Under the pieces are notes generated by a model. It made no database searches. It was not told the origin of the DNA and saw nothing but the letters and a program-made list of their open reading frames with translations. This document shows positions 19,860-22,496 of a stretch of DNA of 40,478 bases, one piece after another. The DNA is taken from NCBI GenBank assembly GCA_030691505.1, contig JAUYEG010000122.1:1-40478 (forward strand). The letters are read 5' to 3'. The number at the start of each line of letters is the position of its first letter. Within the stretch, counting starts at the first letter, position 1. The position numbers and the translations under genes are program-made. Source of the DNA: Bacillota bacterium. Lineage in GTDB: Bacteria; Bacillota; Sulfobacillia; JAUYEG01.

Positions 19860-20809
19860 CCAATACCGGCGGGCCGGGGCACCCGGACGGGCGGGCGGCG
19901 GAGCAGGGTGAGCCGCCGGAGCGCCCGCAGTTCCGCAGCGGCTTTGGCGCTCTGATCGGCCGGCCCAATGTGGGCAAGTCGACGATCCTCAACCGGATGG
20001 TGGGACGGAAGATTGCCATCACGGCGGACAAGCCCCAGACGACCCGCAACCGTATCCTCGGCGTCGTCGCCGGCTCGGGCTATCAATTGGTGCTGATCGA
20101 CACCCCGGGTATCCACAAGCCGCACCACATGCTGGGCGAACACATGGTGCGGACCGCCCGGGCGGCCATGGAAGAAGTCGAGGCCGTCCTGATGGTCGTC
20201 GAAGCCAACGAGCCGCCCGGCCCGGGCGACCGTTACGTTGCCAACTACGTCCGCGAGGCCAGGACGCCCGCCTTTTGTGTGCTCAATAAGATCGACCTGG
20301 TCGGCCCGGCGGAGCGTGAGCCGGCTATACGTAGCTATGCCGGGCTTGCCGGCTTCGCGGCGGTCTATCCGGTCTCCGCGCTCACCGGTGAAGGGATGGA
20401 CGAGCTGCTGCGGGCGGTGCTCGACGTGCTGCCGCCCGGGCCTGAGTACTTCCCCGAGGGCGTCACGACCGACCAGCCGGAGCAGTTCATAGTCGGCGAA
20501 GTCGTGCGCGAGAAGATCATCGGCCTGACCGAGGAGGAAATCCCGCACTCGGTCGCCGTCGAGGTTCAGGAAATGACGCCCCGCCCCAACGGCACGATCT
20601 ACGTCCGGTGCCTGATCTACGTCGAGCGCCGCAGCCAGCGCGGGATCATCATCGGGGCGGGGGGAGCGATGCTGCGGCAGGTCGGCACGGCAGCCCGCAA
20701 AGAGTTGGAATCCCTGCTTGGCAGCAGCATCTACCTCGACCTGTGGGTTAAGGTCAACGCTGATTGGCGAAACCGCGACCGGGCGCTGCGCGAGCTAGGA
20801 TATCGCTGA
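19856..20809 (+). CDS. era: ribosome-assembly GTPase Era
   Basis: 317 residues from ATG 19856, coupled to cdd by ATGA. About 25 extra Gly/Pro/Glu-rich residues precede the G domain. G1 is GRPNVGKST, G2 TTRN, G3 DTPG, G4 NKID. The C-terminal KH domain carries GIIIGAGGAMLRQVG. Era binds the 3' end of 16S rRNA during 30S maturation, in line with YbeY and PhoH upstream. The mgtE promoter's -35 region overlaps the stop. Confidence 0.97.
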   Translation: MTNTGGPGHPDGRAAEQGEPPERPQFRSGFGALIGRPNVGKSTILNRMVGRKIAITADKPQTTRNRILGVVAGSGYQLVLIDTPGIHKPHHMLGEHMVRTARAAMEEVEAVLMVVEANEPPGPGDRYVANYVREARTPAFCVLNKIDLVGPAEREPAIRSYAGLAGFAAVYPVSALTGEGMDELLRAVLDVLPPGPEYFPEGVTTDQPEQFIVGEVVREKIIGLTEEEIPHSVAVEVQEMTPRPNGTIYVRCLIYVERRSQRGIIIGAGGAMLRQVGTAARKELESLLGSSIYLDLWVKVNADWRNRDRALRELGYR

Positions 20810-20834
20810 CCGCCCAGCCCACAGGTGGTATAAT
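20806..20834 (+). promoter_or_regulatory. sigma-A promoter of the mgtE leader
   Basis: CTGACC at 20806-20811 and a perfect TATAAT at 20829-20834 with a 17-base spacer. Transcription would begin near 20841, giving a leader of about 288 bases before mgtE. Confidence 0.7.
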
Positions 20835-20840
20835 TCATCC

Positions 20841-21128
20841 GTTAGAGCAACATTCCAGGCGATTCATACGTAAGATGCGTGTGGCGCAGGACAGTCCCAA
20901 TCAGGCATCCAGCCTGCTCTAAGCCCGCACCGGGATCATGCTCGGGAGGTGAGGCGCACGTGGAACCCCATAGTAGCGACGTCCCCTTAGGTCGCTTGGG
21001 CACTTCAGGCCCAAGCCAGGAAATCGGAGCACAACTACATAGGCGGGGTTCCTGTGCCATGACCTCACGCGGATTGCGCTGAGCCGGCGCACGGGACCTT
21101 CGCCGTCAAGCAAGGGGGGGCGAGGTCC
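20841..21128 (+). ncRNA. structured leader RNA of mgtE, riboswitch-like, class not recognised
   Basis: The leader has two domains. Domain 1 is closed by TTAGAGCA 20842-20849 and TGCTCTAA 20915-20922. Domain 2 is a nested stem: 20949-20954/21063-21068 (6 bp), 20956-20959/21054-21057 (4), 20962-20969/21045-21052 (8), 20973-20976/21035-21038 (4), enclosing hairpins 20977-20980/20991-20994 and 20995-21001/21009-21015 and a purine-rich joint 21016-21034. A third hairpin, 21094-21104/21119-21128 (10 bp, one bulge), pairs the mgtE ribosome binding site. GACCTC (21061-21066) could also pair with GAGGTC (21122-21127), which offers a switch. Mg2+-sensing M-box RNAs often precede mgtE; I see the shared GGTGAGGC but not the rest of that motif. 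A 40-codon frame (20960-21082) is inside. Confidence 0.6.
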
Positions 21129-22496
21129 ATGGATCGCGATATCCTCAAGCTGGTCTCGGAGATCAAAGAACTCCTGGGGCCGGATAAAACCCACCAACTG
21201 CGCACCTATCTGGCCAGGCTGCACCCTTCCGACCTCGCCGAGGTCGTCGAGGAATTCGAGCCCGACATCGGCGCGCGCCTCCTGGCACTCATTGACGAGG
21301 AAAACGCCGCCGACGTCCTTGACGAGATGGACCTTGAGTCCCAGCGCGATGTTATCGCCTCGCTGAGCACGCCGCAGATCGCCGGCATCCTCGAGGAAAT
21401 GCCGGACGACGATCTGGCGGACCTGTTCGGCGACCTCAGCAGGGAAGAGGCCCAGCGCCTGCTCGGCCTGATGGACCGCGAGGACGCCCACGATGTGCGG
21501 CAACTGCTGCGCTACCCCGAGGACACCGCGGGCGGGCGCATGACGGCCGATTTCGTCTGGGTGAGCGAGAACTCCACCGCCGCCCAGGCCATCGACCGGA
21601 TCCGCCGCTTGGCTCCCGAGGCCGAGACGATCAACTATATCTATGTGTTGGACGGCGGGCGCAGGCTCAAAGGCGTGCTGAGCCTGCGCGAAATCATCGT
21701 GGCCAATCCCGACAGCCCCGTCAGGTCGTTTATGGAGCGGGATGTCGTGACCGTCAACGTGACCGACGACCAGGAAGAGGTCGCTCGCACGGCCATGCAC
21801 TACGACCTCCTAGCCGTGCCGGTTGTGGACGCGGAGGGCCGGATGCTCGGCATTTCGACCATTGACGACCTCGTCGACGTCCTCGACGAGGAGGCGACCG
21901 AGGACCTGCACGGAGTGCTGGGCGGGGGCCACGGCCCCGGGGTCCAGCCCGGCGTGGCCGCCGGGGCCTGGGCACGGGTCCGTCTGCGGCTTCCCTGGCT
22001 CGTGATCCTCATGTTTGGCGATTTCCTCGCCGCCAACGTCATTCGGGGGTTCGCGCACGTGCTGGAGGCGATCGTTGCGCTCGCGTTTTTCATCCCCGTG
22101 CTGATGGACATGGGCGGCAACGTGGGCACGCAGTCGCTCGCGATGACCGTGCGCGGGCTGGCCACGGGCGAGATCGAGCACTCCGACCTGCCGAGGATCC
22201 TCTGGCGTGAGACCAAGATCGGGGTAATGCTCGGGCTCTTTTGCGGGCTGCTGATCGCGGGCGTGGCCACACTGTGGCAGGGAAACCCGACGCTGGGCCT
22301 GGTCATCGGGATCTCTATGGTCGCCACGATGACGATCGCGGCGGTGCTGGGGACGATGGTGCCGATAGTCTTCGACCGCATGGGCGTCGACTCAGCCGTC
22401 GCGTCGAGCCCGTTTATCACCTCCGCCGTTGATGTCTCCGGGCTGCTGATCTACTTTGCCACGGCGCGGTGGCTGCTCTCCGCGCTGAAGACCTAG
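21129..22496 (+). CDS. mgtE: magnesium transporter MgtE
   Basis: 455 residues, normal length. Order: N-terminal superhelical MgtE domain (about 20-130), paired CBS domains (about 135-260) and five membrane helices (about 285-450) with GGNVGTQSLA, the ion-pore signature. A dimeric Mg2+ channel closed by Mg2+ binding in the cytosolic domains. ATG 21129 follows GGGGGGGCGAGG, which is locked in a leader hairpin, so translation is probably regulated. Inserted between era and recO with its own promoter. Confidence 0.97.
   Translation: MDRDILKLVSEIKELLGPDKTHQLRTYLARLHPSDLAEVVEEFEPDIGARLLALIDEENAADVLDEMDLESQRDVIASLSTPQIAGILEEMPDDDLADLFGDLSREEAQRLLGLMDREDAHDVRQLLRYPEDTAGGRMTADFVWVSENSTAAQAIDRIRRLAPEAETINYIYVLDGGRRLKGVLSLREIIVANPDSPVRSFMERDVVTVNVTDDQEEVARTAMHYDLLAVPVVDAEGRMLGISTIDDLVDVLDEEATEDLHGVLGGGHGPGVQPGVAAGAWARVRLRLPWLVILMFGDFLAANVIRGFAHVLEAIVALAFFIPVLMDMGGNVGTQSLAMTVRGLATGEIEHSDLPRILWRETKIGVMLGLFCGLLIAGVATLWQGNPTLGLVIGISMVATMTIAAVLGTMVPIVFDRMGVDSAVASSPFITSAVDVSGLLIYFATARWLLSALKT

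Follow-up and report, generated by a model that had tools for sequence, protein, structure and literature searches.

The window, as we call the whole 40,478-nucleotide stretch of DNA that was analysed, carries era, a promoter, a 288-nt leader and mgtE, in this order along the strand. The promoter is the only match found and agrees with the expected bases at 10 of 12 positions, whereas shuffled sequences gave a mean of 0.2 matches. The leader folds more stably than all 100 of its shuffled versions (z = −2.70), and a scan for terminators of the intrinsic type found none between positions 20700 and 21200. The features of the region are collected in Table 1.

Table 1 Features of the mgtE leader region in the window. 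OFF and ON denote the predicted states with the mgtE ribosome binding site (RBS) closed and open, respectively
Feature	Position	Strand	Details
Promoter	20806..20834	+	CTGACC, 17 nt spacer, TATAAT, extended -10 TG; expected start at about 20841
Closed 5' domain of the leader RNA	20842..20923	+	Predicted by folding
uORF Shine-Dalgarno (SD) GGGAGGTGAGG	20944..20954	+	From the sequence; includes most of GGTGAGGC (at 20948)
Segment 1, uORF SD and first codons	20946..20969	+	Predicted to pair with segment 2 (OFF)
Leader-peptide uORF, predicted, 40 aa, MEPHSSDVPLGRLGTSGPSQEIGAQLHRRGSCAMTSRGLR	20960..21082	+	GTG start at 20960, TGA end at 21082
Segment 2, 3' portion of the uORF	21042..21066	+	Predicted partner is segment 1 (OFF) or segment 3 (ON)
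Segment 3, anti-RBS	21086..21107	+	Predicted partner is the mgtE SD (OFF) or segment 2 (ON)
Segment 4, mgtE SD region GGGGGGGCGAGG(TCC)	21114..21128	+	Predicted to be masked by 21094-21107
mgtE, Mg2+ channel/transporter	21129..22496	+	Pfam MgtE 2.5e-39, MgtE_N 2.3e-26, CBS 2.5e-17

Within the leader we identified a previously unannotated upstream open reading frame (uORF), whose GTG start codon follows its SD sequence, GGGAGGTGAGG, after 5 bases. One hallmark of mgtL/mgtQ-type control, also seen here, is a uORF that has its own SD and lies ahead of a Mg2+ transporter gene, within the leader; a second is the presence of acidic and proline residues right behind the start, seen as E2, P3 and D7 in the window and as M[DE]x[GDE]P among its relatives. 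The predicted peptide begins MEPHSSDV, encoded by GTG GAA CCC CAT AGT AGC GAC for the first seven residues. The combination of SD, start codon, Asp/Glu and Pro at codons 3-5 occurs in 0.1% of dinucleotide-shuffled window leaders, and in 0.005% if AGT at codons 5-7 is added, figures that are only descriptive because the criteria were chosen after the relatives had been seen.

Orthologues of mgtE were gathered by protein search and their leaders were then read for uORFs. A family of uORFs beginning M-[D/E]-x-[G/D/E]-P-S recurs in the leaders of mgtE genes throughout the class. In its strict form, M[DE]x[GDE]P[SGR], the motif is present in 20 of 148 leaders against none in the shuffles and none on the reverse strand, and the looser combination of an SD with M[DE]x0-2P in 30 of 148, against a shuffle mean of 2.9 (maximum 7) and 5 on the reverse strand; these 148 leaders take in 40 that were fetched after the motif was first noticed, and are not all independent, since some come from close relatives. 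Peptides of the family begin, for example, with MDADPS (locus L041, Thermosediminibacter litoriperuensis), MDPEPSS (L084), MEPAPDGS (L087), MEGPSSD (L088), MDAGPS (L091-L093), MEPGPS (L100, L101), MESGPS (L106), MDPDPGS (L018) and MDPGPSS (L016), and, in the 40 later leaders, with MDPGPSS (L112, L113, L117, L119), MDTGPSS (L120, L121) and MDAGPSS (L123).

When 40 of these uORFs are set in register, the start codon is GTG, ATG or TTG, codon 2 is GAC, GAT or GAA, GGN or GAY predominates at codon 4, and all four CCN forms occur at codon 5. In the codons for Asp, Gly and Pro the first two bases are fixed while the third is variable; residues 2, 4 and 5 were part of how this set was selected, and the choice among synonymous codons was not, save for the members derived from a DNA pattern. 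As judged from the codons, conservation among the relatives attaches to the reading frame and not to an RNA core. Beyond codon 7 there is little conservation. At codon 6 the serine is encoded by AGT in 31 of the 40 uORFs and by AGC in none, and AGT makes up about 10% of the serine codons in the mgtE genes themselves, counted over the 13 rows in which the gene was found; four rows of this tally duplicate the preceding one. This bias suggests a constraint at the nucleotide level, perhaps through slow decoding in the A site, or perhaps through base pairing.

The uORF of the window departs from the strict motif, having its proline at codon 3 and none at codon 5, where nearly all relatives carry one, and its AGT one position early, at codon 5 and not codon 6. 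From its sequence we treat it as a divergent member of the family, with L059 (MEPDSS) and L088 (MEGPSSD) as the nearest forms. A scan of the window's own genome with the strict DNA pattern gave no matches, owing to this divergence of the peptide. The bare pattern, an SD followed by M[DE]P, is not enriched in this genome (9 matches, compared with 15 when the pattern is reversed), and the evidence for the window therefore lies in the position of the uORF, its SD, the pairing of the leader and the relatives.

The link to Mg2+ transport was also observed in scans that were blind to genes, using the pattern GGAGGTN{3,12}DTGGANNNNGRNCCNAG. In 154 genomes of the class it has 11 matches, of which 6 lie before mgtE and 1, in locus L153, before a gene of the Nramp family. 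In the 398 genomes of the phylum scan it has 21 matches, with 12 directly before mgtE or corA, namely 6 before mgtE (one shared with the class set) and 6 before corA (two from one genus). With the serine written as TCN instead of AGN, 14 matches were obtained, none of them before a Mg2+ transporter gene. The uORF of L153 encodes MDGGPSRRRRP, and the Nramp-family gene, at 72-1388 on the reverse strand, encodes a protein that carries DPGG and, later, TTIAPW. The Mg2+-transporting NRMT clade is marked by DxxG-TxxA/T (PMC8806188), and these two stretches fit it, which makes the protein a candidate Nramp-related Mg2+ transporter (NRMT). Taken together, the matches before mgtE, corA and the NRMT candidate indicate that one small frame precedes three unrelated families of Mg2+ transporters.

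In addition, 11 of the loci scanned have a genuine M-box (RF00380) ahead of the uORF (L016, L031 from Tepidanaerobacter, L045, L047, L060 and L156, and further L166, L169, L170, L171 and L179), which suggests that two Mg2+ sensors stand in series on one gene. The other uORF loci, the window among them, have no M-box upstream.

We propose, with a probability of roughly 0.72, that the window leader encodes a Mg2+-sensing leader peptide similar to mgtL and mgtQ, in which the translating ribosome is the sensor. We infer that the uORF is translated, that Mg2+ acts on the ribosome translating it, and that scarcity of the ion raises mgtE expression. The uORF could instead control mgtE in response to another cue, such as the charging of prolyl-tRNA or the state of EF-P or ABCF factors, or it could act as an arrest peptide. 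The motif is indeed short and contains proline, its near-invariant AGT hints at slow decoding, mgtP of Salmonella responds to charged tRNA-Pro (PMC8092293), and EF-P is reported to act on the control of Salmonella mgtA (PMC6460261). However, one or two proline codons make a weak sensor of charging, and the tie of the motif to three unrelated families of Mg2+ transporters and to M-boxes points to Mg2+ as the cue, so we consider a different signal unlikely.

A riboswitch was the interpretation favoured by the earlier note, which had described a leader that precedes a Mg2+ transporter gene, can pair in alternative ways, seems to act on translation and fits the M-box poorly, and had suggested a variant or a new class of ion-binding RNA. 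The description is upheld by our analysis, and the class assignment is not, as the relatives conserve the reading frame M-[DE]-x-[GDE]-P-S and no RNA aptamer. The note had also recognised GGTGAGGC as M-box consensus; as an M-box aptamer core this stretch was rejected, since at 20948 it forms part of the uORF SD, well spaced from the GTG at 20960. The Rfam search that the note had recommended returned neither RF00380 nor any other family, at the curated cut-offs for the window and up to E=10 for the leader. The window leader does not match the M-box covariance model, whereas the same search detects an M-box in 11 relatives. An aptamer that binds the ion and acts through a translational expression platform, the uORF being incidental, would account for the strong fold with its nested stems, the closed 5' domain, the hairpin over the RBS and the site before mgtE. 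Nevertheless, with Rfam empty at so permissive a threshold, with a DNA homology search of 40 relatives giving no homologue of the leader, the 5' domain 20842-20923 included, and with the frame kept in relatives instead of an RNA core, we regard a new Mg2+ riboswitch as very unlikely, and the window leader is most likely not a riboswitch.

We modelled how the fold of the window leader changes with the position of a ribosome on the uORF. In the free leader, segments 1 and 2 are predicted to pair through the helices 20946-20958/21053-21066 and 20962-20969/21045-21052, while the hairpin 21094-21107/21116-21128 masks the mgtE SD. With a 30-nt ribosome footprint on the first uORF codons, segments 2 and 3 form a 17-bp helix, 21042-21058/21086-21104, in the model. 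The predicted cost of opening the mgtE RBS is about 19-20 kcal/mol for the leader alone and falls to about 14 kcal/mol with a ribosome on codons 1-3, a change of −5.3 kcal/mol that was reached by none of 300 controls with shuffled spacers (mean +0.25, sd 1.29). A modelled mid-uORF ribosome has no effect, and one near codon 33 makes the opening worse. The structure is set by the position of the uORF ribosome, as in mgtL/mgtQ-type systems, in a thermodynamic model only, whose folding energies leave kinetics and protein factors aside.

The same behaviour is predicted for the family. In 20 family leaders the early ribosome changes the opening cost by a mean of −2.4 kcal/mol, compared with +0.1 in the controls (Wilcoxon p=0.0005), and lowers it more than a mid-uORF ribosome does (p=0.0002), the early-codon effect being absent in 3 of the 20. 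The corA leaders of L167, L168 and L173, and the M-box-bearing leader of L016, behave alike in the model. Even with a ribosome at the start of the window uORF, the prediction leaves the mgtE SD paired with 20980-20988, so that complete opening would take a second ribosome or additional factors; in terms of the model, a single ribosome at the uORF start may be insufficient. The promoter scan and the folding reproduce the strong promoter, the structured 288-nt leader and the RBS-hiding hairpin of the earlier note, with correct coordinates. The hexamer at 21061-21066 (GACCTC), to which the note had given a switching role, is complementary to the mgtE SD and pairs with the upstream SD of the uORF, but the structures computed have 21094-21107 or 20980-20988 bound to the mgtE SD instead. 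Plain translational coupling, in which translation of the whole uORF would open the mgtE RBS with no sensing involved, would suit a uORF that ends 46 nt before the mgtE ATG at 21129, and that overlaps or almost touches the transporter start in some relatives, but it is the least probable alternative, given that modelled mid-uORF ribosomes leave the RBS shut and that the N-terminal motif is kept while the remaining peptide is not.

Returning to a ribosome that senses Mg2+, the mgtQ-like layout and the mgtL-like acidic and proline-containing start together lead us to propose that ribosomes abort or linger at the first codons when Mg2+ is low. In this mechanism ribosomes would load on the uORF at 20960. 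With plentiful Mg2+ the uORF would be translated through, segments 1 and 2 would re-pair, and segment 3 would keep the mgtE RBS closed. At low Mg2+ the acidic and proline residues (E2 and P3 in the window, M-[DE]-x-[GDE]-P-S in relatives) would destabilise or stall ribosomes at the first codons, and repeated initiation would hold segment 1 occupied, so that segment 2 could take segment 3. Pairing of segments 2 and 3 would then free the mgtE RBS and allow synthesis of the transporter.

Among the closest known systems, mgtQ of Salmonella has this layout: through the action of Asp2 and Glu5 on ribosomes at the first codons, stem 2:3 replaces stems 1:2 and 3:4, and the RBS of mgtB opens (PMC8092293). 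The predicted window leader shares with it the early acidic residue (Asp2 in mgtQ), a strong SD and the alternation of a closed 1:2 and 3:4 state with an open 2:3 state. In contrast, mgtQ has 8 aa and lies between the genes of an operon, whereas the window uORF has 40 aa; the likeness in motif ends at an early acidic residue and a proline, and the mgtQ type is not described in Bacillota in the literature searched. In mgtL, low Mg2+ destabilises the ribosome at an acidic and proline-containing start (PMC11282234). This uORF of enterobacterial mgtA, with EPDP after the start and intrinsic ribosome destabilisation, resembles the window in being short, in its early acidic and proline residues, and in a leader that refolds with the progress of the ribosome, which for the window is a thermodynamic prediction. 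However, mgtL acts on Rho-dependent termination, while the predicted target here is the RBS of the transporter gene, and the window and its family belong to another phylum, precede mgtE, corA and NRMT genes and carry the motif MDxGPS. The uORF corL, of enterobacterial corA, similarly has its translation inverse to the expression of the transporter, but contains fewer acidic and proline residues and acts through Rho (PMC11552253). The M-box (RF00380, ykoK leader) controls the same kinds of genes and, in several relatives, precedes the uORF, but it is itself a Mg2+-binding RNA, an aptamer of about 169 nt, and the window has none.

Beyond the window, we think it rather likely that peptides of the type M-[D/E]-x-[G/D]-P-S, with the serine encoded by AGT, are sensed by ribosomes across the phylum and control translation initiation of MgtE, CorA and NRMT in Bacillota, often with an M-box upstream; two independent sensors of Mg2+, an RNA and a ribosome, would then act in series. 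In the literature we found, Mg2+ sensing through the stability of ribosomes on acidic and proline-containing nascent peptides is confined to enterobacteria; if our proposal is true, the conserved and readily recognised uORFs that precede mgtE, corA and NRMT in Bacillota would make it a widespread, possibly convergent strategy, which would account for the control of those mgtE and corA genes that have no M-box. The family would also be a ready set for testing the action of MDxGPS on the ribosome. We did not find it reported in the literature searched, which mostly omits subscription journals, and its novelty is therefore uncertain.

The family uORF may also serve as a marker of Mg2+ transporters among the relatives of Nramp, and would, on the same condition, aid the recognition of the genuine ones. 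As a separate observation, a 6S RNA (RF00013) lies directly upstream of mgtE at L009:2714-2890 and L013:2738-2918 (uncultured Firmicutes, Syntrophomonadaceae).
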